Below are positions 632 through 12,938 of a DNA stretch of 12,938 bases, one piece after another. The notes beneath the pieces are model-generated. The model worked only from the letters and a program-made list of their open reading frames with translations. It had not been told where the DNA came from and made no database searches. Source of the DNA: Treponema sp. (GTDB taxonomy: Bacteria > Spirochaetota > Spirochaetia > Treponematales > Breznakiellaceae); NCBI GenBank assembly GCA_031275535.1, contig JAISOR010000088.1, forward strand, positions 1-12,938. Direction: 5' to 3'. Within the stretch, counting starts at the first letter, position 1; each line of letters begins with the position of its first letter. A program made the translations under genes and the position numbers.

Positions 632-1741
632 TTATTGGGGCAGGATGATGGCGTTCACCTTAAGGCTCCGTTCGGCCACCGCCCGGTCTACCATCTCCTT
701 AGAGACCTTTCCCCGCTGCCGGGGATGGGGGGGGGCGTCGCCAATAAGGATGATGAGCCGGGATTCCCCGGTCCAGGGGAACTTTTGGGCCGCCTCGTAG
801 AGGGCCTCATAAACCACTTCGGGGATATCCCGGCCGCCCCCAACCCGGATAGCCTGTAAGGTTTTGCGGAAACCCTCAAAATCACCGGTAAAGGGAACAA
901 TACGGGTAAGGTATTCCTCGTAATAATCCTTATACAGAACCATCCCGATCCTGAACCGGGGAAACCCCGAAATCATGCGCTCCAAGAGGGGGATAAGCTG
1001 CTCCCGAATCGCGTCAATATCGTCCTTCATGCTGCCGGTGGTGTCCAAACACAGGACCAGATCCAGGATCTTCCCCCTTTCTTCTTCCAGAATAAGGCCG
1101 ATCTTATCCACCAGATCGGCCGCCCCGGTGGAGTAGATCAGGTCCCCCTTGCCGGCGGCGCTTATCTCCCGAAAGGCCTCAACCGTATCCTTCATAAAGT
1201 TTCCCTCCGGCGGCCCCTCCAGGGGCCTCTGGGTCACCCGCAGGATAAAGGGATTATCCCGAAAGGCGCCCCGGTAATCCCCGTAGGGCAGGGCAAAACT
1301 GCGTATATTCAGGTAGGTCCCGTCCACCACATAGACCTCGCCGTGACGGGTCCCGGGGTACCCATAGTTGAGAATATAGGGGATATATATATGGAAGCTC
1401 TGTCCCCATTCAGCATCCCCCTCGGGGCTCGAATCAATGAGGGACCAGATCGCGCTTTCCCGGGGGATGGGGACGCCGTCCAATAGACGGATCTCATCCC
1501 CGTTGACCGCGTTCCAATCCGGGGACCGGTAGGCATAATTATCCGCCCGCAGGGTGGGATCCCTGGTGGACTCCGTAAGGAGTACCGACGAAATGCCCGG
1601 TTTCTTCCGTATAAAAAGATGAAAGCCCCCGTCCACCCGCTGCTCAATCCGTAAATCGCCGGGGCCCAGGGATAGATCCTGGCCATAACCCTGCCCAATA
1701 CCCAGGGCCACAAGGACAAGGAAAAAACTTTTTTTCTTCAT
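632..1741 (-). CDS. Secreted VWA-domain protein
   Basis: The product is 369 residues. Its N-terminus (MKKKSFFLVLVALGIGQGYG) is a typical Sec signal peptide with a likely signal peptidase I site after YGQ or QGYG. There is no lipobox cysteine, so it should be periplasmic or surface-exposed rather than a lipoprotein. Residues 25-215 form an unassigned N-terminal region with many aromatic and glycine turns. Residues 226-369 are a von Willebrand A domain. The metal-binding (MIDAS) motif is DTTGS at 233-237, GGGRDIPE at 301-308 fills the position usually holding the MIDAS threonine, and GDAPPH has Asp335. VWA domains bind proteins through a divalent metal. The closing LKVNAIILPQ is the last beta strand, so the protein is complete. 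The Shine-Dalgarno is weak. It lies convergent to the OmpA-family gene and divergent from the DeoR regulator. The binding partner is unknown. Confidence 0.85.
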   Translation of the reverse strand: MKKKSFFLVLVALGIGQGYGQDLSLGPGDLRIEQRVDGGFHLFIRKKPGISSVLLTESTRDPTLRADNYAYRSPDWNAVNGDEIRLLDGVPIPRESAIWSLIDSSPEGDAEWGQSFHIYIPYILNYGYPGTRHGEVYVVDGTYLNIRSFALPYGDYRGAFRDNPFILRVTQRPLEGPPEGNFMKDTVEAFREISAAGKGDLIYSTGAADLVDKIGLILEEERGKILDLVLCLDTTGSMKDDIDAIREQLIPLLERMISGFPRFRIGMVLYKDYYEEYLTRIVPFTGDFEGFRKTLQAIRVGGGRDIPEVVYEALYEAAQKFPWTGESRLIILIGDAPPHPRQRGKVSKEMVDRAVAERSLKVNAIILPQ

Positions 1742-1820: not shown

Positions 1821-1860
1821 CAAAACAAATCCGAAAGAACTTCGAAAGAGAAAGGAAATG
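1821..1860 (+). promoter_or_regulatory. Candidate DeoR operator: repeats phased at 11 bp
   Basis: CGAAAGA occurs exactly at 1832-1838 and again at 1843-1849. Looser copies sit on the same 11-bp register at 1821 (CAAAACA) and 1854 (GGAAATG). The repeats lie between the -10 box and the start codon of the DeoR-type regulator. Several DeoR-family repressors bind tandem TTTCG/CGAAA-type repeats spaced by about one helical turn, so autoregulation of the operon is plausible. This is a pattern match only; part of it overlaps the ribosome binding site. Confidence 0.35.
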
Positions 1861-2652
1861 ATTGCGGATCTGAATGAAAGGGAACGGACTATCCTCGAAC
1901 GGCTTTCTGCGGAAGGGTCCGTTACGGTGACTACCCTGGCCCAGGATCTGGGTTTGTCGGAGGTAACCATCCGGGGAGATCTAAAAACCCTGGAAGACAA
2001 GGGATGGCTCAACCGTACCTGGGGAGGGGCGGCGCCGGTGATGCACCGCTATATCCTGGAACGCCAAAAGGAACGGCAGGAACAGAAGAACGCCATAGCC
2101 CGGGCCGCAGCGGATCTGGTTCAGGATGGGGACGTGATCATGATCGAGGCGGGGACTACCACGGCCCTGGTGGCCAGGTACCTGGCGGGAAAACGGGACA
2201 TCCATATCGTAAGTAATTCAACCCTGGTTTTTTCCTATGCCCGCATGAACCCGAATCTCCAGATTACCATGACCGGCGGTGAATTCCGGCGGCCCACCGA
2301 ATCCCTGGTGGGCCCTATCGCCCTCCAAACCATTGCCCGGCTTAATGTCCGGCTGGCCTTTGTGGGGACCGATGGCTTCACCCTGGAACGGGGCATCACC
2401 ACCCATCTGATGGAAGGGGCGGAGATTGTCAAGGCCATGAAGGCCCACGCCCAAACCACGGTTCTGGTGGCGGATTCCAGCAAATACGGAAAGATCGGTT
2501 TTACCAGCGTCCTGCCCTTGTCGGATATGGACCTGATCCTGACCGACGGAGAACTGGAGGATGGGGCGGCGGGGAAATTAGCCGAGGCGGGAGTACGGGT
2601 GGAACGGATAAAGGGCAGCCGGGAGCATGAACCCGGGAACGTAAAAACATAG
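1858..2652 (+). CDS. DeoR-family transcriptional regulator
   Basis: The product is 264 residues. I chose the ATG at 1858, preceded by AAAGGA, because the family begins with this segment (MIADLNERERTILERL) and because an upstream TTG at 1792 lies inside the promoter. Residues 6-56 are a DeoR winged helix with recognition helix SEVTIRGDLKTLEDKG. Residues 75-235 are the DeoRC sugar-phosphate sensor. Its ISOCOT-type fold signatures are present: DVIMIEAGTTT, VSNSTLVF, TGGEFRRPTESLVGP, GTDGFTLERGITT and LVADSSKYGKIGF. Members usually repress sugar-catabolic operons and are released by a phosphorylated sugar. It is the first gene of the operon, 40 nt before E2, and so probably controls the downstream genes and itself. 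The natural ligand cannot be read from the sequence. A charged C-terminal tail of about 15 residues is not part of the conserved domain. Confidence 0.92.
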   Translation: MIADLNERERTILERLSAEGSVTVTTLAQDLGLSEVTIRGDLKTLEDKGWLNRTWGGAAPVMHRYILERQKERQEQKNAIARAAADLVQDGDVIMIEAGTTTALVARYLAGKRDIHIVSNSTLVFSYARMNPNLQITMTGGEFRRPTESLVGPIALQTIARLNVRLAFVGTDGFTLERGITTHLMEGAEIVKAMKAHAQTTVLVADSSKYGKIGFTSVLPLSDMDLILTDGELEDGAAGKLAEAGVRVERIKGSREHEPGNVKT

Positions 2653-2655
2653 AAC

Positions 2656-2676
2656 GGCGGCGGCGATTCCGCCGCC
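2656..2676 (+). other. GC-rich intercistronic hairpin between deoR and E2
   Basis: GGCGGCGG (2656-2663) pairs perfectly with CCGCCGCC (2669-2676) around the loop CGATT. The stem begins 3 nt after the regulator's stop codon and ends 6 nt before the E2 Shine-Dalgarno (AGGAG, 2683-2687). No U-run follows, so it is not a full terminator. It could set the expression ratio between regulator and enzymes by stalling, 3'-end protection or mRNA processing. Confidence 0.55.
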
Positions 2677-2692
2677 TTAGATAGGAGTGATT

Positions 2693-4126
2693 ATGGCGCA
2701 TGTTTTGATAATGCCCCGGCAGGGGAATACGGTGGAATCCTGTATCATCGTTGAGTGGAAGGTTAAGGAAGGGGACACGGTGAGTGCCGATACCGCTATT
2801 TGCGAAGTGGAAACCGACAAGGCAACCTTCGAGGTCCCCGCGGGGGAACAGGGGCTGGTTCTAAAGCTGCTCCGGGCCGGGGGCGAGGATGTGCCGGTCC
2901 TGGAACCCATCGCGGTAATTGGACAGGCCGGGGAAGACTGGGCCGCCGCCCTGGGAAAGGCGGATGCCGGCTCTGTCCCCGTTTCGGCTTCTCCCGGCGG
3001 GGAACAGTCCGCCCCGATGCCGGCCTCCGGGGGACAGGGCCCGAACATCGCGGAACCGGCGGCCCCTTCATGGGGGCAGGGCCCGAACGCCGCCCGGATG
3101 CCGGGGGAACGGCTCCCGGTGTCCCCCCGGGCGCGGAATTTAGCGGATAAGGAAGGCATCTCCCCCGCAGGCATCCCCGGCTCCGGTCCCGGCGGGCGGA
3201 TAATTGAACGGGATATAGCGGCGGCCCTGCAATCCGGGCCCGCCCTGACCGCGGCGGCCAGGGCGGATCTGCGGGGGAACGGCGGTGCCGCCGGGGGGAG
3301 CCTCCCGCCGGAAGGCTCGGGGCTGGCCGGCAGGATCACCGCCGGAGATCTGGCCGGGGCCGGAGGGACCGGGGCCGCAAAACCCGCGGCTGCGGAGAAG
3401 GCCCCGCCCCGGATACCGGACCTGGGAGAAGGGGGCGTCACCGAAACCCCCATCAAGGGGATCCGCAAACTTATCGCGGACCGGATGTTCCAATCCCTGG
3501 CGGAAAGCGCCCAGTTTACCCTGAATGCGGCGGCCCCGGCGGTGCGGCTCCAGGAACTTAGGGCCCGGATGAAGGGAAGCGGCGAAAGCCTGGGACTCTC
3601 CAACATAACGGTCAACGATCTTGTCCTCTTTGCGGTTTCCCGGACCCTCCCCCGCTTCCCCTTTATGAACGCCCATAAGATCGGGGATACCCTCAAAACC
3701 TTTGAACGGGTTCACCTGGGGATGGCGGTGGATACCCCCAAGGGCCTGATGGTACCGGTGATCCGAAACGCCAACCTCCTCTCCCTTAGACAAATCTCCG
3801 GGGAGGCAAAACGGCTGGCCTCGGCCTGCCAAAATGGAGGCATAGGCCCCGATGAACTTTCGGGGTCCACCTTTACGGTAACCAACCTGGGAAGTTTGGG
3901 GGTAAGCGGTTTTACCCCGGTACTCAACGCCCCCGAGGTAGGCATCCTGGGCGTCTGCGGCATAGAGCTAAAGCCCCTGGCCGGGACAGGCGGTGAGGTG
4001 AGCTTCCTGCCCCATATCAGCTTTAGCCTGACCATCAATCACCAGGTGGTGGACGGCGCCCCTGCGGCCCGGTTCCTCAAGGCCCTGGGAGACACGGTGG
4101 CCGATATAGATCTCTGGTTCGTGTAA
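2693..4126 (+). CDS. Dihydrolipoamide acyltransferase (E2) of a 2-oxoacid/acetoin-type dehydrogenase complex
   Basis: The product is 477 residues. The ATG at 2693 is preceded by AGGAG at 5 nt, a better start than the GTG two codons earlier. It is the core of a lipoate-dependent complex that moves an acyl group from E1 to CoA. Residues 1-80 are a lipoyl domain with the swinging-arm lysine in ETDKATFEV (Lys43). A linker rich in Pro, Ala and Gly follows (about 85-142). Residues 143-179 are the peripheral subunit-binding domain (VSPRARNLADKEGI through GPGGRIIERDI). Residues 204-223 look like the second half of another such domain. The catalytic domain (about 240-477) begins with IKGIRKLIADRM and ends with the active-site motif NHQVVDGA (His450, Asp454), where most relatives have DHRVVDGA. 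Acyl specificity cannot be read: acetyl is likely, branched-chain or other acyl groups are possible. The E3 gene follows after 14 nt. Confidence 0.93.
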   Translation: MAHVLIMPRQGNTVESCIIVEWKVKEGDTVSADTAICEVETDKATFEVPAGEQGLVLKLLRAGGEDVPVLEPIAVIGQAGEDWAAALGKADAGSVPVSASPGGEQSAPMPASGGQGPNIAEPAAPSWGQGPNAARMPGERLPVSPRARNLADKEGISPAGIPGSGPGGRIIERDIAAALQSGPALTAAARADLRGNGGAAGGSLPPEGSGLAGRITAGDLAGAGGTGAAKPAAAEKAPPRIPDLGEGGVTETPIKGIRKLIADRMFQSLAESAQFTLNAAAPAVRLQELRARMKGSGESLGLSNITVNDLVLFAVSRTLPRFPFMNAHKIGDTLKTFERVHLGMAVDTPKGLMVPVIRNANLLSLRQISGEAKRLASACQNGGIGPDELSGSTFTVTNLGSLGVSGFTPVLNAPEVGILGVCGIELKPLAGTGGEVSFLPHISFSLTINHQVVDGAPAARFLKALGDTVADIDLWFV

Positions 4127-4140
4127 ATAAGGAGGAGCCA

Positions 4141-5550
4141 TTGTACGACGTTATCATAATCGGAGCCGGGCCCGGGGGATACCTTGCGGCGGAACGGCTG
4201 GGCCACGCAAAGAAAAAGGTTTTGTTAATAGAAGAACAATACCTGGGAGGCACCTGCCTTAATGTGGGATGTATTCCCACCAAAACCCTGCTCAATTCGG
4301 CCAAACAGTATGTCCATGCCCGGGAAGCGGAAAAGTTCGGCGTTACCGTTAAGGGAGTATCCTTCGACTGGGGGGATATTCAGAAGTGGAAAAACGAGGT
4401 CGTAGAAAAGCTCCGGGCCGGGGTAAGCGCCCGGATGAAGCGTTTTGCCGTGGATGTGGCCGCCTGTACGGGGGAGATCCTGAGCCCCCCCAGGGGCGGC
4501 GTTCCGGGAAAGGTCCGGGTAAAACCGGGCGCCGGAGGGACCGAAGAACACGAGGGCAGGACGATTCTGGTATCCACCGGCTCTGTCCCCGTCCTGCCCC
4601 CTATTCCGGGGGCCAGGGATAACCCCGAGGTGGTGGACTCCACGGGGCTCCTTTCCATCGGGAAGGTCCCCAAGCGGCTGGCGGTCATCGGCGGGGGGGT
4701 CATTGGGGTAGAATTCGCCGGCCTGTTCTCCGCCCTTGGGTCGGAGGTCCGGGTCATCGAAATGATGGACGAAATCATCCCCTTTATGGATAAGGAACAG
4801 GCTCCCCTGTTCCGCCGGGCCATGAAATCGGGGCAAAAACCGGGGGTCGAGTTTAACCTGGGCTGTAAGGTTGGGCAGATTGAGGGGGCCTCGGTCGTTT
4901 TTACCCCCAAGACGGGGACCACGGAAAAGCTCGAAACAGACCTCGTCCTCATGGCGGTGGGCCGGCGGCCGGTACTCACGGGCTGGGGCGCGGAGGCGGC
5001 GGGGCTGGACCTAAGCCCCAAGGGGGTCGCCGTGGACGACCGGATGCGGACCAATGTACCCGGTATCTGGGCCGCGGGGGATGTGACCGGCCGGAGCCTC
5101 CTGGCCCATTCGGCATACCGTATGGCGGAGGTGGCGGTGGCGGATATTCTTGCCTGCCTGGATGGGAAACCGCCGGCGGCAAACCGGATGCGGTACAACG
5201 CCGTGCCCTGGGCGGTTTACGGCATCCCCGAAGCCGCGGGGGTGGGAATTACGGAGCAGGAGGCGGAAGCCCGGGGCATCGCCGTCCTTACGAGCTCTGT
5301 CCCCATGCGGGTCTCCGGCCGTTTTGCCGCGGAGAACACCTTTGCCGGCCAGGGGGCGGTCAAGATCATCGCCGACGCCCTGAGCCGGCGGATCCTGGGG
5401 ATCCACGCGGTGGGGGCCTATTCCTCGGAGTTTATCTGGGGAGGGGCGGCCCTGATAGAACAGGAACTTCGGATCGAAGATGTCAAAGAGCTCATATTCC
5501 CCCATCCCACGGTCTGCGAATTGATCCGCGACGCGGTTTGGGAACTATAA
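4141..5550 (+). CDS. lpdA: Dihydrolipoamide dehydrogenase (E3)
   Basis: The product is 469 residues, a normal length for E3. It reoxidises dihydrolipoyl-E2 and reduces NAD. It starts with TTG, supported by a strong AAGGAGG a few bases upstream and by the immediate FAD-binding segment MYDVIIIGAGPGGY (residues 1-14). The redox disulfide lies in GGTCLNVGCIPTK (Cys39, Cys44). The NAD-binding fold is AVIGGGVIGVEFAGLFSALGSEV. The second FAD contact is GIWAAGDVTGRSLLAHSA. The C-terminal catalytic pair sits in HPTVCE (His455, Glu460). All catalytic positions are therefore present. A small proline- and glycine-rich loop around residues 117-136 is longer than in many homologues. It lies between E2 and E1 with short spacers, so it is dedicated to this complex, though E3 proteins are often shared. 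Confidence 0.96.
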   Translation: MYDVIIIGAGPGGYLAAERLGHAKKKVLLIEEQYLGGTCLNVGCIPTKTLLNSAKQYVHAREAEKFGVTVKGVSFDWGDIQKWKNEVVEKLRAGVSARMKRFAVDVAACTGEILSPPRGGVPGKVRVKPGAGGTEEHEGRTILVSTGSVPVLPPIPGARDNPEVVDSTGLLSIGKVPKRLAVIGGGVIGVEFAGLFSALGSEVRVIEMMDEIIPFMDKEQAPLFRRAMKSGQKPGVEFNLGCKVGQIEGASVVFTPKTGTTEKLETDLVLMAVGRRPVLTGWGAEAAGLDLSPKGVAVDDRMRTNVPGIWAAGDVTGRSLLAHSAYRMAEVAVADILACLDGKPPAANRMRYNAVPWAVYGIPEAAGVGITEQEAEARGIAVLTSSVPMRVSGRFAAENTFAGQGAVKIIADALSRRILGIHAVGAYSSEFIWGGAALIEQELRIEDVKELIFPHPTVCELIRDAVWEL

Positions 5551-5577
5551 CGATACTAATCGGCAAGGAGAAGAACA

Positions 5578-8049
5578 ATGCCAAAATCACTGTTGATAGA
5601 CCCCATGGAAGTACGGAAACCGGAGATGCTTAAAATCAAGGATATTCCGGTTAATCAGTATAAGGGTGATATAAAGAAGGAACTGGGCCTCTACGGAAAG
5701 GACCGGCTTAAACGGATATGGTACGACATGGTTACCATCCGGGAGTTCGAGACCATGCTCAATACCTTTAAGACCATGGGAACCTGGAATGGGATCGAGT
5801 ACAACCACAAGGGACCGGCCCATCTTTCCATGGGGCAGGAAGCCTCCGCGGTGGGTCAGTGCGTAAACCTGGGGGTGGAGGACTATATTTTTGGGAGCCA
5901 CCGGAGCCATGGAGAAATTCTGGCCAAGTGTTATTCCGCGGTGTGGCAGCTCTCGCAGGATGCCCCGGGGGAGAAAAAACTGGAGGCCATCATGAAGGGC
6001 TTCCTGGACGGAGAGACCCTGCGGGCGGCGGAGAAGATCCCCTATAACAACCTAAAGGACCTGGCGGAAAATTTTGTCCTCTACGGGACCCTGGCGGAGA
6101 TCTTTGCCCGCCAGGCGGGATTCAACCGGGGGCTGGGGGGCTCCATGCACGCCTTCTTTACCCCCTTTGGCTCCATGCCCAATAACGCCATCGTGGGGGG
6201 CTCCGCGGATATCGCCACCGGGTCGGCCCTGTACAAGCGGATCAACAAAAAGCCGGGGATTGTGATCGCCAACATCGGGGACGCATCCATGGGCTGCGGG
6301 CCGGTCTGGGAGGCCATGATGATGGCAGCCATGGATCAGTACCATACCCTTTGGCCTAAGGCGGCCGGGGGAGCGCCCCCCATCCTCTTCAACTTCTTCA
6401 ACAACTTCTACGGCATGGGGGGACAGACCTCGGGGGAAACCATGGGCTATGGGTTCATGGCCAGGGTCGGAGCGGGGGTCAACCCGGAGAACATGCACGC
6501 CGAAAGGGTGGACGGCTACAGTCCCCTGGCGGTGGCGGAGGCCATTGCCCGGAAGAAAAAGCTCCTCCTGGACGGCAAGGGACCGGTGTTGCTGGACACC
6601 CTGACCTACCGGATATCCGGCCATTCCCCCTCGGACGCTTCCAGTTACCGGAGCCCCGAGGAAATAAAGCTCTGGCAGGAGGCGGATTCCATCAACGCCT
6701 ACGGCGCCTACCTGGCCGAAAACGGCGTCGCCACCCAGGGGGAACTGGATTCCCAGCGGGCCCTGGTTCAGGCAAAGCTCCTGGAGGTGGTAAAGCTGGC
6801 CACGGACAACGCCGCCTCGCCCCGGCTGGGGGAGGGTTTTATCGAGTCGGTGATGTTCTCCAACGGCAGGATCGAAAAGATGGAAGACCGGGAAGCGGAA
6901 CTGTCCCAGCCTCCGGAGGAGAATCCCCGGATAAAGGCCCTGGCGGGAAAGGCCCGGTACGGTTTTGAAGCCGATGGAAAGCCGGTTTCCAAGAACAAGG
7001 CCTTCCAGTACCGGGACGCCCTCTTTGAGGCCCTGGTCCACCGTTTCTCCATCGATCCCACCCTGGCGGCCTGGGGAGAGGAGAACCGGGATTGGGGGGG
7101 AGCCTTCGCGGTGTACCGGGGCCTTACGGAGCTTTTGCCCTATAACCGGCTCTTCAACAGCCCCATTTCCGAGGGGGCCATCGTGGGCGCCGGGGTCGGC
7201 TATGCCCTTTCCGGCGGCCGGGCGGTGGTGGAACTAATGTACTGCGATTTTATGGGCCGGGCGGGGGACGAGATTTTCAACCAGGCCTCCAAATGGCAAT
7301 CCATGTCCGCGGGGCTCCTCAAGATGCCCCTGACGGTCCGGGTTTCGGTGGGAAATAAATACGGGGCCCAGCACAGCCAGGATTGGGCCGCCCTGGTGGC
7401 CCATATCCCCGGACTCAAGGCCTATTTCCCCGCCACTCCCTATGATGCCAAGGGCATGCTCAACCTGGCCCTGCGGGGGACAGACCCGGTGATCTTCTTT
7501 GAAAGCCAGCTCCTCTACGACATGAGCGAACAGTTCGAAAAGGGCGGCGTTCCCGAGGGCTACTATGAAGTCCCCGAAGGGGAGCCGGTCATCCGGAAAC
7601 AGGGGAAGGACATTACCATAGCCACCCTGGGGGCGACCCTCTATAAGGCCCTGGAGGCGGCGAAAAAACTGGAAGCCGATTACGGCCTTTCGGTGGAACT
7701 TATAGACCTTCGGTTCATCAATCCCTTAAACTATGAAAAGATCATCGAATCCGTTAAAAAGACGGGGAAGCTGCTGCTGACAAGCGACGCGGCGGAACGG
7801 GGGTCCTTTCTCCACACCGTGGCCAGTAACATCCAAACCATGGCCTTTGACTATCTGGATGCCCCGGTTACGGTGGTGGGGAGCCGGAACTGGATAACCC
7901 CGGCGGCCGAAATGGAAGAATACTACTTCCCCCAGGTTAACTGGATCATCGACGCCATCCATGAACGGGTATTGCCCCTACAGGGATACCGTCCGGTAAC
8001 GGTGCAAACCACCCTGGATCTGATCCGCAGAAACCGTTTAGGGGTATGA
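5578..8049 (+). CDS. Fused E1 alpha/beta thiamine-dependent dehydrogenase
   Basis: The product is 823 residues and fuses what are usually two subunits. Start ATG has AAGGAG upstream. Residues about 45-400 are the E1-alpha half: HLSMGQEAS (82-90), SHRSHGE (107-113), GLGGSMH (185-191), the thiamine diphosphate/Mg motif GD (234-235) through NN (275-276), and [10 protein letters not shown] with His349. Residues about 475-815 are the E1-beta half: PISEG with the cofactor-activating Glu532, GAQHSQDW with His599, and the transketolase C-terminal segment [12 protein letters not shown]. The protein decarboxylates or cleaves its substrate and loads the acyl group on E2 lipoate. Against typical alpha plus beta (about 650-660 residues) it has extra material at the N-terminus (about 45), an insertion near 121-170, a stretched cofactor motif, and a charged connector near 430-475. 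Pyruvate, branched-chain oxoacids, acetoin or a sugar-derived hydroxyketone are all possible substrates. Confidence 0.93.
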
Positions 8050-8071
8050 GAGGTAGAAAAACGCGAAGGGT

Positions 8072-9433
8072 ATGAAAAACTACGAGATCACCATCAACGA
8101 TCCCCGGGCGGATCCACAGGAACGGCTTGGCGCGCTCAGGGCCCTGGAAAGGGAGTCTCCCCCGGGGGGAAAAACAACGGGGGAGATAAACAACCACATC
8201 CACACGATTTACAGCTTTAGCCCCTATACACCCAGCATGGCCGCGCTGCGGGCCCGGCAGGCGGGGCTTGAAGCGGCGGGATCGGTGGATCATGATTCCA
8301 TCGCCGCGGCGGAGGAGATGATCGCCGCCTGCGCGGAACTAGGCATAGGGGGCTGTGTGGGCTTCGAGGTCCGGGTAAGTTTCAAGACCGGGGCCGACGG
8401 CAGGCCCGGCCCCTTCGCGGACCGGAAGATCAACAACCCCGATTCGGCGGGCCTGGTCTACATGACCGTCCAGGGAGCGCCCCGGCCCGCGATACCCCGG
8501 ATCCGGGCCTTCCTGGACCCCCTGCGCCAGGAGCGGCGCCTGCGGACCCAGGCTATGGCGGAGGCCGCCAACAGCCTCCTGGCAGAGGCGGGCCTGGGGC
8601 GGATTGAGTTCGAGGAAGACATCCTGAACCGCTCCCAATTTGCCCGGGGCGGGGAAATTACCGAAAGGCACCTCCTGGCTGCCGTGGCGGACAAGCTTAT
8701 CCTAAAATACGGCCAGGGGCCGGCCCTTATCGAAGGGCTCAGGACCCGGTTCGGGGTAGCGGTTCCCCCCAAAACCGGGGCGGCCCTCTCGGACCCCGCC
8801 AATCCCCACTATCTCTTTGATCTGTTGGGAATTCTCAAATCCGGTTTTCTTTCCCGGATTTTTATACAACCCGGAGAAAGGGAATGTATCCCCGCCGGGA
8901 AGGTAACGGACTTTGCGGCCTCCATCGGGGCAATTCCGGCCTACGCCTATTTGGGGGACGTGGGGGAATCGCCCACGGGGGATAAGAGGGCTGAAAAATT
9001 TGAAGATGATTATCTGGAAGAACTTTTTGATGAACTGTCCCGCCTGGGATACAGGGCGGTTACCTATATGCCCCCCCGGAACACGGCGGCCCAGCTCCGC
9101 CGGGTCAGGGAACTTTGCGGGGAACGGGGTTTTATGGAAATATCCGGGGTAGACATCAACAGCTCCCGGCAGTCCTTTAACTGTCCCGAGGTGTTGCAGG
9201 ATGAATTCCGCCACCTCATAGACACCACCTGGGCCCTGATTGCCCATGAACGGCTCACATCCCTGGACCCGGTCTTTGACCTCTTTTCCCCGGCAAACCC
9301 CCTGGCGGCCCGGCCCCTGGCGGCCCGGCTTAGGGCCTATGCGGCGGCGGGGAAAGATCTGGACCTCCGGCGGCCCGGGGAATCGGCCCCGGAAATAGCA
9401 AGAAAACTACAGGAAGGAAGGTACCTGGTATGA
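8072..9433 (+). CDS. PHP-domain protein, probable metal-dependent phosphoesterase
   Basis: The product is 453 residues, longer than the usual 270-300 residue PHP phosphatases. The N-terminal PHP metal ligands are clear: NNHIHTIYS (His42, His44), SVDHDSI (Asp73, His74, Asp75) and GFEVRVSF (Glu99). The later AHP motif is replaced by PAYAYLGDVG, and the closing DxH motif by IAHERL, so the second half departs from the standard set. A long middle section (about 120-300) carries the segments GGEITERHLL and NPHYLFDLLGILKSGF. From memory, proteins with these same segments occur in other anaerobes, so the changes are probably family-wide rather than decay. The gene starts 22 nt after E1 and overlaps the next gene by ATGA. 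The SD is modest (GAAGGG close to ATG). A phosphosugar substrate is an inference from the PHP fold and context; hydrolysis has not been shown. Confidence 0.8.
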   Translation: MKNYEITINDPRADPQERLGALRALERESPPGGKTTGEINNHIHTIYSFSPYTPSMAALRARQAGLEAAGSVDHDSIAAAEEMIAACAELGIGGCVGFEVRVSFKTGADGRPGPFADRKINNPDSAGLVYMTVQGAPRPAIPRIRAFLDPLRQERRLRTQAMAEAANSLLAEAGLGRIEFEEDILNRSQFARGGEITERHLLAAVADKLILKYGQGPALIEGLRTRFGVAVPPKTGAALSDPANPHYLFDLLGILKSGFLSRIFIQPGERECIPAGKVTDFAASIGAIPAYAYLGDVGESPTGDKRAEKFEDDYLEELFDELSRLGYRAVTYMPPRNTAAQLRRVRELCGERGFMEISGVDINSSRQSFNCPEVLQDEFRHLIDTTWALIAHERLTSLDPVFDLFSPANPLAARPLAARLRAYAAAGKDLDLRRPGESAPEIARKLQEGRYLV

Positions 9434-10701
9434 CCATGGATCAACTCATCATCGCCCCCCTGGTCCGGGGCCTCTGCGTGAACGCCGCGGGGGAAGCCCG
9501 GACCATCGTTCCCGGATCAGCGGGAACAATCCCCCCCCAGGCCCTCAGGATAGACATCAGCTCCGCCATAAGCGGGGATACCCTGGATGAAGCCGCGGCG
9601 GCAAAGGCGCTGCAGGAAGCCTATGCGGCCTGGGAATTTGAAAACACCCCCGGCGGGGCGGAGGCGGTGGCAAGAAGGGGGGAGCCGGGGAAACAGCCCT
9701 CCTGCATCGCCCTCACGGGGGGAGAGGAACCCGCGGTCTATTGGATAGACCGGGATATTGACGCGGCCAGGAAGCGGCGGGACACCGGAAACGGGGAATT
9801 TCTGGAAGGGCTTTCCCCTCCGGTTTCACGGTTAAACGCCCTCTGTACTCCCGGCATGTCCGCGGCCGGCCGTTCCGCGGTGGTACAGGGTAAGACGGCC
9901 CTGGTAACCGGGGGCGCCCAGGGTTTTGGGGAGGAGATAGTCCGGGGGCTGGCCGCCTCGGGGGCGCTGGTCTTTATCGCCGACCTTAACCTGCCGGGGG
10001 CGGAAAAGCTGGCGAACACGATAAACGCCGCCCAAAAGCGGACCGCGGCCATAGCGGTTCCGGTCAATGTGGCCGATGAGGATTCGGTGGAGGGGCTCTT
10101 CAAAACCGTGGCGGAAACCGCCGGGGGCCTTGACATCTGCGTCAGCAACGCCGGGATCCTAAAGGCCGCCGGCGTATTGGAACAGGACCTCTCCAGCTTT
10201 AAGCTGGTCACCGATATTAACTATACCGGGTTCTTCCTTATGGCAAAACACTGCGGCAGGCTGCTCAGAAGGCAGCACCGGACCGCCCCCAACTGGAAAA
10301 CCGACATCATCCAGATCAACTCTAAATCGGGACTGGCGGGCTCAAACAAGAACGGCGCCTATGCGGGGGGAAAATTCGGCTCCATTGGGCTGGCGGCGAG
10401 TTTTGCCCTGGAACTGGTGGAATACAACATCAAGGTAAACGCCATCTGTCCGGGCAATTTTTTCGACGGCCCCCTGTGGTCGGACCCGGAGAAGGGCCTT
10501 TTTGTGCAGTACCTCAACACGGGGAAAGTTCCGGGCGCCCGGAATGTGGCGGATGTAAAAGCCTTTTATGAGGCCAAGGTTCCCATGAAGCGGGGCTGTA
10601 CCGGCGCCGATGTCATGCGGGCCATCTACTACATTATCGAGCAGGAGTACGAAACCGGCCAGGCCGTCCCCGTTACGGGGGGACAGGTTATGCTGCACTA
10701 A
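9430..10701 (+). CDS. SrlD-like short-chain dehydrogenase with an N-terminal extension
   Basis: The product is 423 residues. Residues 153-423 are a complete classical SDR: TGGAQGFG dinucleotide loop (160-167), SNAG (239-242), catalytic serine in INSKSG (Ser298 or Ser300), and YAGGK (Tyr311, Lys315). The segments IIQINSKSG, VPMKRGC and the terminal VTGGQVM closely match enterobacterial sorbitol-6-phosphate 2-dehydrogenase (SrlD), so oxidation of a (phospho)alditol at C2, or the reverse, is the best guess. Residues 1-150 are an Ala/Gly-rich extension I cannot assign. It keeps the same base composition as the rest, and the frame is intact, so it is not an obvious read-through artefact. The start overlaps the PHP stop as ATGA with GGAAGG at 8 nt upstream, suggesting translational coupling; a second ATG at 9436 is also possible. 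It is the last gene of the operon. Confidence 0.88.
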   Translation: MTMDQLIIAPLVRGLCVNAAGEARTIVPGSAGTIPPQALRIDISSAISGDTLDEAAAAKALQEAYAAWEFENTPGGAEAVARRGEPGKQPSCIALTGGEEPAVYWIDRDIDAARKRRDTGNGEFLEGLSPPVSRLNALCTPGMSAAGRSAVVQGKTALVTGGAQGFGEEIVRGLAASGALVFIADLNLPGAEKLANTINAAQKRTAAIAVPVNVADEDSVEGLFKTVAETAGGLDICVSNAGILKAAGVLEQDLSSFKLVTDINYTGFFLMAKHCGRLLRRQHRTAPNWKTDIIQINSKSGLAGSNKNGAYAGGKFGSIGLAASFALELVEYNIKVNAICPGNFFDGPLWSDPEKGLFVQYLNTGKVPGARNVADVKAFYEAKVPMKRGCTGADVMRAIYYIIEQEYETGQAVPVTGGQVMLH

Positions 10702-10735: not shown

Positions 10736-11665
10736 CTATAACTGCGCTATGGCCGGGGGGGCGGGAGGATTGATAAACTTTTTCCACACCGAGGGGGCAA
10801 TGCCGGTTTTGTTTTTAAACAAGCGGGAGAAGTAGTACTGATCCTCAAACCCCATTTTAAGGGCCACCTCTTTTACCGATACATTCTCCTGTTCCAAAAG
10901 GCTTTCGGCCTTGTGGATCTTAATATGAATGTAAAACTGATAGGGGGTCATGGAGGTATAGGTTTTAAAGATCTCATTAAGCCTTGAGGTGCTTATCCCT
11001 ATCTGTTCGGAAATATGTGACAAATTGATAGTACCATACACATTCGATTCCATGAGGCCCTTGGCTTTTTCCACGATCTTTTGATAGTAGTTGGGCTGTT
11101 CCTTTCGCCGCTCGTGGGTCAGCATCTCCGCAATCAGGGAAAGGATCCCCGTGCAGGCCTTAAGCTGATACAGGGATCGTTGTGCCCGGACCTCATCAAA
11201 AATATTGTTAAAGGTTAAGATGATGTTATCCCGCAGGCCAAGATCAAAAAAAAGATGGCCCCGGGAAAGAAGGTCCCGCCGGATCAGGTTGGAAAAAAAA
11301 TCTCCCTTAAACCCGACCCAGTATTCATGCCAGCCTGTTTCATATAGGGGTTTATACGCATGCCGGATCCCCGGCAGAATTAACAGCATAGAACCGGGGA
11401 GAACCTCATAGGTCCGGTCCTCTACGGAAAAGACCCCCTGCCCTTCGGTAATATATACTAACTGAAATTCCGGCAAGATCCGGCCTTCGGCCACCTGTCT
11501 AAAGAGAACGGGATGCTCGTTTTTATGCGGCGGATAGATCGTGTTTGGTTCTACCTTTATACAACCCGCGGTGGTACAGACCATCCCCAGCTTTTCATCT
11601 TCCTCACTGTAGGGAAGATAATGTAAAAAAGAATCCCAGGCTTCCCACGAAATTTCCATATCCAT
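10736..11665 (-). CDS. AraC-family transcriptional regulator
   Basis: The product is 309 residues. Residues 65-115 are a cupin-like ligand pocket (FQLVYITEGQGVF, LPGSMLLILPG, WHEYWVGFKG). Residues 195-298 are the AraC DNA-binding domain with two helix-turn-helices: ISEQIGISTSRLNEIFK (about 218-234) and VKEVALKMGFEDQYYFSRLFK (264-284), ending in the family's GIAPSVWKK. Members with a cupin domain usually activate sugar or glycoside uptake genes after binding the ligand. Base composition is visibly more AT-rich than in the adjacent metabolic operon. It ends convergent to the SDR gene with a 34-nt gap and is divergent from the ABC transporter gene, its most likely target. The SD is weak; a second in-frame ATG two codons in is an alternative start. 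The C-terminal tail (PPAPPAIAQL) is proline-rich and not conserved. Confidence 0.92.
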   Translation of the reverse strand: MDMEISWEAWDSFLHYLPYSEEDEKLGMVCTTAGCIKVEPNTIYPPHKNEHPVLFRQVAEGRILPEFQLVYITEGQGVFSVEDRTYEVLPGSMLLILPGIRHAYKPLYETGWHEYWVGFKGDFFSNLIRRDLLSRGHLFFDLGLRDNIILTFNNIFDEVRAQRSLYQLKACTGILSLIAEMLTHERRKEQPNYYQKIVEKAKGLMESNVYGTINLSHISEQIGISTSRLNEIFKTYTSMTPYQFYIHIKIHKAESLLEQENVSVKEVALKMGFEDQYYFSRLFKNKTGIAPSVWKKFINPPAPPAIAQL

Positions 11666-11790: not shown

Positions 11791-12938
11791 ATGGCGGAGC
11801 ATATATTAGAGTTGCGGCATATTTCAAAGATCTTTCCCGGCGTCAGGGCCTTGGAGGATGTTCACTTTGAACTTAAGCCCGGGGAAGTCCACGCCCTTAT
11901 GGGAGAGAACGGCGCGGGAAAATCAACCTTTATCAAGATCATCACCGGGGTATATAAACCCAACAGCGGAGAGATCCTCATTGGCGGGAAACCCGTAGAC
12001 ATCAGGACCCCCCAGGATGCCCAGGCCCTGGGGATTGCCGCCATATATCAGCATGTAACCTGTTTTCCGGATATATCGGTGGCGGAAAATATCTTTATGG
12101 GTCATGAAAAAATCCACTCCCCCCGGGGACCGATTAACTGGCGGATCATGCATCAAAAAGCGACGGAACTCCTGGAACAGTTGGACGCCAACTTTGACAG
12201 CAGCACCGTCATGGGCAGCCTTTCGGTGGCCCAGCAGCAGATCGTGGAAATTGCCAAGGCCCTTTCTGCCAATGCCCGGATCCTTATCATGGACGAACCC
12301 ACGGCGCCCCTTTCCAACCGGGAATGTGAAGACCTCTACCGCATAACCGCGGGTTTAAAAGAGAAGGGGGTTTCCATCATTTTTATCTCCCATCGTTTTG
12401 AGGACATGTACCGCCTGGCCGACCGGGTAACGGTGTTTCGGGACGGACGGTATATCAACACCTGGAAAAAGTCCGAGATAAATGACAGCACCATGGTAAT
12501 GGCCATGGTAGGCCGGGAAATCCGTCAGTTTTTTCCCCGGCGGGATACCACGCCGGGGGAGGAGATCTTCCGGGTGGAGGGGCTTTCCCGAACCGGCTAT
12601 TTCAAGGATGTGGGATTTACCCTGCGGAAGGGGGAAGTTCTTGCCCTTACCGGGCTGGTCGGCGCGGGGCGGACCGAGGTATGTGAATCGATTTTTGGCA
12701 TCAGTAATTACGACACGGGGACCATTACGCTGAACGGAAAGGAGCTGGATCATCTCAGCGCCTCCGAAGCGATAGCCTCGGGGATTGGCTACCTCCCGGA
12801 GGACCGGCTGAAACAAGGCCTGGTCCTCCGCTGGGAAATCGCGAAAAACATTAGCCTTCCGGCGCTGGATAAATTTGTCAGGTTCGGGTGGATCAACCGG
12901 ACAAAGGAAAATGAGGTCGCCAAAGAACTGGGGGAGAA
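11791..12938 (+). CDS. Sugar ABC transporter ATP-binding protein (RbsA/MglA type), 3' end outside window
   Basis: 382 codons are visible; the frame is open to the end of the window, and full-length relatives have about 500 residues. It begins at ATG 11791 just after GGGGGGAGGA, unusually close, but the N-terminus (ILELRHISKIFPGVRALEDV) matches the family start. The first ATPase half has Walker A GENGAGKST (38-46), Q-loop IYQH, signature LSVAQQQ, Walker B ILIMDEPT and H-loop FISHR. The second half shows the degenerate Walker A GLVGAGRTE and the alternative signature LPEDRLKQGL, the hallmark of CUT2 sugar importers (ribose, galactose, xylose, autoinducer-2). It powers import through a permease and a periplasmic binding protein, which probably follow downstream. 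The transported sugar cannot be told from the ATPase. Divergence from the AraC gene suggests control by that protein. Confidence 0.94.
   Translation, partial: MAEHILELRHISKIFPGVRALEDVHFELKPGEVHALMGENGAGKSTFIKIITGVYKPNSGEILIGGKPVDIRTPQDAQALGIAAIYQHVTCFPDISVAENIFMGHEKIHSPRGPINWRIMHQKATELLEQLDANFDSSTVMGSLSVAQQQIVEIAKALSANARILIMDEPTAPLSNRECEDLYRITAGLKEKGVSIIFISHRFEDMYRLADRVTVFRDGRYINTWKKSEINDSTMVMAMVGREIRQFFPRRDTTPGEEIFRVEGLSRTGYFKDVGFTLRKGEVLALTGLVGAGRTEVCESIFGISNYDTGTITLNGKELDHLSASEAIASGIGYLPEDRLKQGLVLRWEIAKNISLPALDKFVRFGWINRTKENEVAKELGE

Follow-up and report, generated by a model that had tools for sequence, protein, structure and literature searches.

The 6-deoxyhexoses L-fucose and L-rhamnose occur in pectin and mucus, and in the usual accounts their breakdown ends in lactate, 1,2-propanediol or propionate. 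In the L-sorbose pathway, L-sorbose-1-phosphate is reduced to glucitol-6-phosphate and then oxidized to fructose-6-phosphate. For RhaEW, the rhamnulose-1-phosphate aldolase and lactaldehyde dehydrogenase activities have been shown (PMC3870299); that paper contains no word beginning with "spiroch". In the present work, we describe a six-gene operon from a contig of Treponema sp. (GenBank JAISOR010000088.1, 12,938 nucleotides; the whole of this stretch is called the window below) that encodes a regulator, the E1, E2 and E3 components of a thiamine/lipoate dehydrogenase complex, a PHP-fold protein and a short-chain dehydrogenase/reductase (SDR). The operon very probably serves the catabolism of rhamnose or fucose in spirochaetes. 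The best explanation of its gene content, to which we assign a probability of about 0.6, is that it takes part in 6-deoxyhexose catabolism in which the complex would cut a derivative of L-rhamnose or L-fucose to acetyl-CoA.

Domain and profile searches identified six genes on the plus strand (1858-10701), separated, in gene order, by 34, 14, 27, 22 and -4 bases, which confirms the closely spaced genes with an overlapping last pair noticed in the original prediction:

1858..2652, plus strand: DeoR-family repressor, the first gene of the operon (DeoRC 166 bits, HTH_DeoR 48.6 bits)
2687..4126, plus strand: E2, dihydrolipoyl acyltransferase (lipoyl, E3-binding and catalytic domains)
4141..5550, plus strand: E3, dihydrolipoyl dehydrogenase (TIGR01350 423.9 bits, cut-off 408.8; CxxxxC redox motif)
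5578..8049, plus strand: fused E1 alpha-beta, thiamine-dependent dehydrogenase (E1_dh, Transket_pyr and Transketolase_C domains; distinct clade in the tree; family motifs kept), the proposed 1-deoxyketose(-phosphate)-cleaving component
8072..9433, plus strand: PHP-fold protein with an altered metal site (isomerase/epimerase proposed)
9430..10701, plus strand: SDR, sorbitol-6-phosphate-dehydrogenase-like (PRK12384 224.7 bits, below the cut-off of 307)

The DeoR gene, which has an alternative TTG start at 1792, recurs as the first gene across related loci. The window proteins contain all motifs that we take to define thiamine/lipoate complexes: the thiamine pyrophosphate motif GDx...N, the glutamate and histidine of E1 beta, the lipoyl lysine (ETDKA in the E2 lipoyl domain, residue 42), HxxxDG in the E2 catalytic domain (residue 452), and CxxxxC in E3. 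Since the thiamine, lipoyl, E2 and E3 motifs are kept, the complex looks competent. The SDR has a 150-residue N-terminal extension, with TGGAQGFG at 160 and YxxxK at 311; the idea that this extension is a remnant of an aldolase C-terminus was dropped (profile comparison probability 0.2%).

The six-gene operon is real and conserved. An alignment of 15 of the 120 listed homologues of the PHP protein was used to scan genome contigs, and the best 80 of 222 stretches encoding a PHP relative, from records titled as spirochaetes or unspecified bacteria, were taken as the locus set. In 66 of the 72 loci that could be examined, SDR is the next gene downstream of PHP; the gene directly upstream of PHP encodes E1 in 29 of 63 loci, an aldolase in three and neither in 31. 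PHP and SDR are the tightest pair, and E1 often, not always, adjoins them. Fifty genomes, reached through 50 of the 80 loci and chosen because they bear PHP, encode E1 (45/50), a Zn-dehydrogenase (46/50; in G033 only as a 54% identical copy), an FGGY kinase (44/50), a class II aldolase (38/50), L-rhamnose isomerase RhaI (41/50) and L-fucose isomerase FucI (36/50). As a less biased sample, 197 spirochaete genomes were drawn evenly around a PHP genome (G001). At thresholds of E <= 1e-30 for PHP and E <= 1e-150 for E1, PHP was found in 11 and E1 in 12 of these genomes, and all 11 are within the 12 (chance of such overlap about 4e-17, kinship ignored); four of the 11 (G001, G002, G006 and G009) had been known beforehand. 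The two genes share a contig in all 11 genomes and are at most 250 bases apart in ten.

Isomerase, mutarotase or importer genes scoring above curated cut-offs share a cluster with the operon in its relatives. The termite-type loci encode L-rhamnose isomerase (614 bits, cut-off 572; 574 bits by a second model, just under its cut-off of 585), L-rhamnose mutarotase (128 bits, cut-off 99.6) and RhaS (358 bits, cut-off 342), and LplA, above its curated NCBIfam cut-off, is among the operon neighbours in relatives. In G087 and G057, two genomes whose operon contig has about the length of the genome, RhaS and an ABC gene come after the operon (RhaS 449.5 bits, cut-off 342, in locus L157; a 52% match in L158), and a 410-residue PF00596 gene is located a few kb further on. 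Three loci have an L-fucose mutarotase gene divergent from DeoR: L069 and L077, whose titles name them as colon bins of water buffalo and water deer (175-176 bits, cut-off 141), and L071 (by similarity). In genome G050 (locus L077/L163), the genes FucI-LacI-permease-ABC-solute-binding protein-FucU stand opposite DeoR-E2-E3-E1-PHP-SDR-kinase, and FucI scores 1072.9 bits (cut-off 775). By tblastn with one or two representatives per marker, rhamnose markers were detected in 15 and fucose markers in 8 of the 80 loci, and both in none. Among the 197 genomes, FucI is present in 11 of the 12 with E1 versus 21 of the 185 without it. What rhamnose and fucose, both 6-deoxyhexoses, have in common is the terminal methyl group. 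The original prediction had proposed a sugar-catabolic setting, which is supported by the rhamnose or fucose genes, the putative SorE-like reductase and the sugar kinase found as neighbours; the link to rhamnose and fucose was absent from it and is added here.

Several loci of this set show features of their own. In L157 and L158, no E3 gene could be seen to separate E2 from E1, and the Zn-dehydrogenase is divided from RhaS by two genes of 678 and 475 residues that perhaps form a two-component pair. A metagenome bin titled Treponema denticola (L044) carries the operon with kinase and Zn-dehydrogenase, and a homologue of the PHP protein is also on record from Treponema primitia. A 473-residue protein weakly similar to arabinose/sulfoquinovose isomerases heads the rhamnose importer cluster in L060 (8458-9879, minus strand), and such a protein is found at the importer-cluster head in five loci (L006, L051, L058, L060 and L062).

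To place the fused E1, a maximum likelihood tree of 40 rows was built, the references being annotated and not verified. All 28 fused E1 rows fall into a single clade (100/100), on a stem of 3.97 changes per column, with 14 rows on the spirochaete and 14 on the alphaproteobacterial side, the latter comprising 11 with alphaproteobacterial names and 3 unnamed. The clade is apart from two pyruvate dehydrogenase rows, two spirochaete pyruvate-dehydrogenase-like rows and one branched-chain oxoacid dehydrogenase row, and two rows of acetoin context, whose genes adjoin 2,3-butanediol dehydrogenase or acetoin reductase, form their own pair outside it. The tree contains several long branches, its two pyruvate dehydrogenase rows do not group together, and the fork from which the fused E1 clade, acetoin, one pyruvate dehydrogenase group and others arise is unresolved. 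With E1 in no pyruvate or branched-chain clade, tree position and gene context agree with the earlier view that this is not a housekeeping pyruvate dehydrogenase, and we rejected the housekeeping assignment. A search for family-specific basic residues of E1 that might bind phosphate yielded only K65 and R561.

The neighbouring dehydrogenases and kinase suggest how a substrate for the complex might be formed. A Zn-dehydrogenase often follows the SDR or the kinase in related loci; its copy in L002 aligns along 100% of the query with three annotated SorE proteins (L-sorbose-1-phosphate reductase) at 46-49% identity, and its nearest E. coli protein is YggP (54% identical), so that a SorE-like reductase may be inferred. 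The window SDR scores 224.7 bits against sorbitol-6-phosphate dehydrogenase (SrlD; NCBIfam PRK12384, cut-off 307) versus 142.1 bits against RhaD_aldol-ADH. The kinase is of the FGGY_C_2 type, about 30% identical to rhizobial FGGY kinases, one of which adjoins rhaM. Of the 32 genomes with both the kinase and FucI, 10 have the two genes no more than 3 kb apart and 17 have them no more than 20 kb apart. In Treponema saccharophilum, a 47% identical kinase precedes an annotated rhamnulose-1-phosphate aldolase (rhaD); this pair of the same kinase family with RhaD, the textbook route, is on plasmid pTS1 (L194:10001-12367).

We propose the following pathway: (i) the sugar is imported and isomerized to L-rhamnulose or L-fuculose, a step strongly suggested by gene homologies, (ii) the FGGY kinase, judged by homology and neighbours, would form the 1-phosphate, (iii) the SorE-like Zn-dehydrogenase, by its homology, would reduce the C2 ketone to a 6-deoxyhexitol-1-phosphate, (iv) the SrlD-like SDR, by analogy with the L-sorbose pathway, would oxidize the methyl-adjacent carbinol to a 1-deoxyketose-6-phosphate, CH3-CO-CHOH-..., and (v) the fused E1 with E2 and E3 would cleave the acetoin-like bond, yielding acetyl-CoA, NADH and a tetrose-4-phosphate. 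The CH3-CO-CHOH core of the 1-deoxyketose-6-phosphate is that of acetoin, and thus the complex could cleave it like acetoin. If the stereochemistry of SorE is kept, L-fuculose-1-phosphate gives L-fucitol-1-phosphate, then 1-deoxy-D-tagatose-6-phosphate, and finally acetyl-CoA and D-threose-4-phosphate. A precedent for the last step exists, since pyruvate and acetoin dehydrogenases form 1-deoxyketoses by making the bond that would be broken here; formation of 1-deoxy-D-xylulose by purified pyruvate dehydrogenase is described in one paper. We regard cleavage of a deoxyketose by E1 as probable, and the exact intermediates as tentative. That the SDR feeds a 1-deoxyketose (phosphate) to the complex was the central guess of the original prediction; it gives the best fit to the neighbours found, namely the genes for rhamnose or fucose, the SorE-like reductase and the sugar kinase, while the enzymatic steps themselves are predicted from context.

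The standard route would explain the same genes in another way: an aldolase cuts rhamnulose- or fuculose-1-phosphate to dihydroxyacetone phosphate and L-lactaldehyde, the SDR converts the latter to lactate as a RhaW-like enzyme, and the complex is a pyruvate dehydrogenase. RhaI is present in all 38 of the 50 PHP genomes with a class II aldolase versus 3 of the 12 without it (Fisher 9e-8, kinship ignored), and in 33 of the 38 genomes with both, no more than 3 kb separates the aldolase from RhaI. The window SDR does score 142 bits to RhaD_aldol-ADH, and the aldolase-SDR fusion of L080 resembles RhaEW, whose activities are documented in PMC3870299. However, the operon is also carried by three fucose-type genomes (G002, G048 and G050), in none of which was a PF00596 aldolase found by a search that gave a match in 17 of 20 genomes searched and 12 of 14 controls. 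In these genomes, the textbook lactaldehyde cut therefore seems unavailable and the carbon chain seems to be cut otherwise, which makes the fused E1 the obvious candidate. Moreover, the SDR is nearer to sorbitol-6-phosphate dehydrogenase than to RhaD_aldol-ADH, as is the L080 fusion (236.1 versus 213.1 bits), E1 is outside the pyruvate dehydrogenase rows, and the SorE-like reductase and PHP would be left without a role. We thus consider the standard route unlikely, the aldolase-free fucose genomes disfavouring lactaldehyde as the sole explanation.

L-Rhamnulose-1-phosphate and L-fuculose-1-phosphate are C4 epimers, and the class II aldolase family includes 4-epimerases, e.g. AraD. It may be speculated that in rhamnose-type genomes the RhaI-linked, RhaE-like aldolase is a C4 epimerase leading rhamnulose-1-phosphate into the fuculose branch, which would explain why it is needed in rhamnose genomes only; a plain RhaE role is open too.

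The PHP protein was originally assigned a phosphate step, which now appears doubtful, as three residues of the canonical PHP metal site are replaced in this family. The aspartate of the canonical SDG motif is Phe49 here (by comparison with 3e0f and a spirochaete paralogue), the histidine of the PH motif aligns with Asp296, an aspartate that could still bind metal, and the closing DxH histidine is Asn363 (by comparison with the spirochaete paralogue only). Phe49 and Asn363 are invariant in all 15 aligned homologues. An ordinary phosphatase is disfavoured by this altered site. L080 encodes a fusion protein of 840 residues in which PHP comes after a mannitol-1-phosphate 5-dehydrogenase-like domain. 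This domain scores 241.9 bits against a cut-off of 356, with both Mannitol_dh Pfam domains scoring above theirs, and a search of the 87 other loci gave no homologue of it. The fusion points to alditol phosphates. It stands side by side with the class II aldolase-SDR fusion in the E1 operon (L080:8744-13233). Speculatively, the substrate of PHP is probably a sugar phosphate or a tetrose phosphate, and the protein might be a metal enzyme without hydrolytic action.

A bolder assignment would make PHP a carbon-carbon lyase acting on a deoxyketose phosphate, with the complex taking methylglyoxal, hydroxyacetone or lactaldehyde to acetyl-CoA and a C1 unit, or to lactoyl-CoA. PHP is in the operon of all three aldolase-free genomes, and the three substitutions mean that plain phosphatase chemistry is not a given; however, the occurrence of the same E1 clade without annotated PHP in Alphaproteobacteria, beside kinases and polyol dehydrogenases, would be left unexplained, and we know of no PHP-fold aldolase. 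Such a lyase appears rather improbable.

The alphaproteobacterial fused E1 homologues are 52-54% identical to the spirochaete protein, and their contexts were viewed in five regions of 16 matching records, with incomplete plasmid gene tables. On plasmids of Agrobacterium, Rhizobium and Pleomorphomonas, E1 is accompanied by a lipoyl protein and an alpha/beta hydrolase, together with kinases and importers for sugars and, in some cases, a polyol dehydrogenase. In L091-L095, one of which is on pRL8, the E2 is of a split acetoin type (separate lipoyl protein and alpha/beta hydrolase) within sugar/polyol clusters; the two pRL8 proteins correspond to one half each of the acetoin E2 AcoC, with scores below the AcoC cut-off. 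These contexts support a possible acetoin-like chemistry on sugars beyond spirochaetes. The genes there, which encode polyol dehydrogenases, kinases of the xylulokinase-like and PfkB kinds and importers for sugars in general, would also suit a transketolase-like oxidative cut of an ordinary ketose phosphate to glycolyl-CoA instead of acetyl-CoA. Given that the sugars linked to the operon in spirochaetes are the 6-deoxy sugars rhamnose and fucose, we hold this cut to be highly improbable. On a Clostridioides difficile plasmid (L138:7055-18013), genes for E1, E2 and E3 come immediately after a sugar-binding regulator and precede phosphotransferase system genes; they perhaps encode another sugar-linked complex.

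In the window itself, the sugar link consists of two genes downstream of the operon, by similarity alone:

10736..11665, minus strand: AraC-family regulator (67-68% identical to the AraC gene of locus L006)
11791..12936, plus strand: sugar ABC transporter ATPase, running off the window end (73-76% identical to ATPases of RhaS-type importer clusters elsewhere)

In L006, the AraC gene stands between aldolase-PHP-SDR-Zn-dehydrogenase and the rhamnose importer. Because of these two similarities, the window operon is probably of the rhamnose type. On the other side, a VWA-domain protein (632-1741, minus strand) is divergent from DeoR, with a homologue upstream of the operon also in L015, L023, L041 and L053. 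Promoter and terminator scans of the window gave no more matches than in shuffled sequence, Rfam and tRNA searches gave none, and a repeat search returned only short, diverged matches. No match was obtained for the operon DNA in E. coli genomes (near mode) or for the PHP protein in plasmids.

Several observations weigh against cleavage to acetyl-CoA by this operon. The expectation that PHP and SDR genes stand beside the complex held in the even sample, where PHP and E1 occur together in 11 of 11 PHP genomes, and was less clear elsewhere: E1 does not adjoin PHP-SDR in about half of the loci examined, five of the 50 PHP genomes show no E1, and no PHP or SrlD-like SDR is annotated near E1 in the alphaproteobacterial regions viewed. 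Genome G062 (locus L159) has E1-E3-E2 on a 9.4 kb contig and no PHP match in the genome. As genome completeness is not given, absences of E1, PHP or aldolase are soft. The SDR, kinase, Zn-dehydrogenase and aldolase all score under the curated cut-offs for their named functions. The RhaE-like aldolase of 38 genomes, and its fusion to the SDR in L080 (656 residues), as in RhaEW, would fit the ordinary lactaldehyde route as well. The weakest point of the scheme is its product, as D-threose-4-phosphate is not a standard central metabolite and needs further conversion. In its complete form, which we offer as a possibility, the scheme is a third way to split a 6-deoxyhexose, distinct from the aldolase cut to lactaldehyde and from the non-phosphorylated acid route: the carbonyl would be moved to the methyl end, a thiamine/lipoate cut would give acetyl-CoA and D-threose- (or erythrose-) 4-phosphate, the aldolase would be a C4 epimerase, and PHP would be a metal isomerase or epimerase making the tetrose usable.

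No account of the route was found in the open-access literature among the matches listed, judged by title and abstract start, with most subscription journals and all preprints outside the scope. The best reading is a conserved deoxyhexose system, without a description in the open-access literature searched, in which the central guess of the original prediction is retained and the predicted substrate is narrowed to rhamnose or fucose derivatives. If true, these sugars would be converted straight to acetyl-CoA, bypassing the lactaldehyde and propanediol steps, and the products predicted from them for termite-gut and ruminant-gut spirochaetes would change. An old curiosity, the formation of 1-deoxyketoses by pyruvate and acetoin dehydrogenases, would acquire a physiological role. 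The large fused-E1 family, common in Alphaproteobacteria and now annotated as "alpha-ketoacid" or "2-oxoisovalerate" dehydrogenase, would receive a testable function, and the role of a PHP-fold enzyme with an altered metal site in sugar breakdown is raised as a puzzle.

Comparison with the described systems reveals the following likenesses and differences. The RhaI-linked aldolase and the SDR resemble the two halves of RhaEW (PMC3870299) and are fused in L080; in most loci, however, the SDR is separate and nearer to SrlD, and class II aldolase was not found in the three fucose-type genomes. The PHP protein differs from the PHP phosphoesterases (RNase AM, CV1693 and 3e0f) by its three metal-site departures. 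With the L-sorbose pathway (SorE/SorD, and SrlD), the operon and its neighbours share a SorE-like Zn-dehydrogenase and an SrlD-like SDR, of which in that pathway one reduces a ketose phosphate and the other oxidizes the far end, whereas the predicted substrate is here a 6-deoxyketose-1-phosphate, so that the product would be without a C1 hydroxyl. With the acetoin dehydrogenase complex (AcoABC and E3), the system shares the thiamine/lipoate machinery and, in the proposed substrate, the same methyl ketone-carbinol bond, and the rhizobial E1 relatives adjoin lipoyl and alpha/beta-hydrolase proteins that match the AcoC halves. In contrast to acetoin dehydrogenase, the E1 alpha and beta parts are fused, with an insert of about 47 residues relative to the acetoin row and a separate clade in the tree, the spirochaete E2 is of the 2-oxoacid_dh type, and the linked genes are those of rhamnose and fucose, not of butanediol or acetoin.

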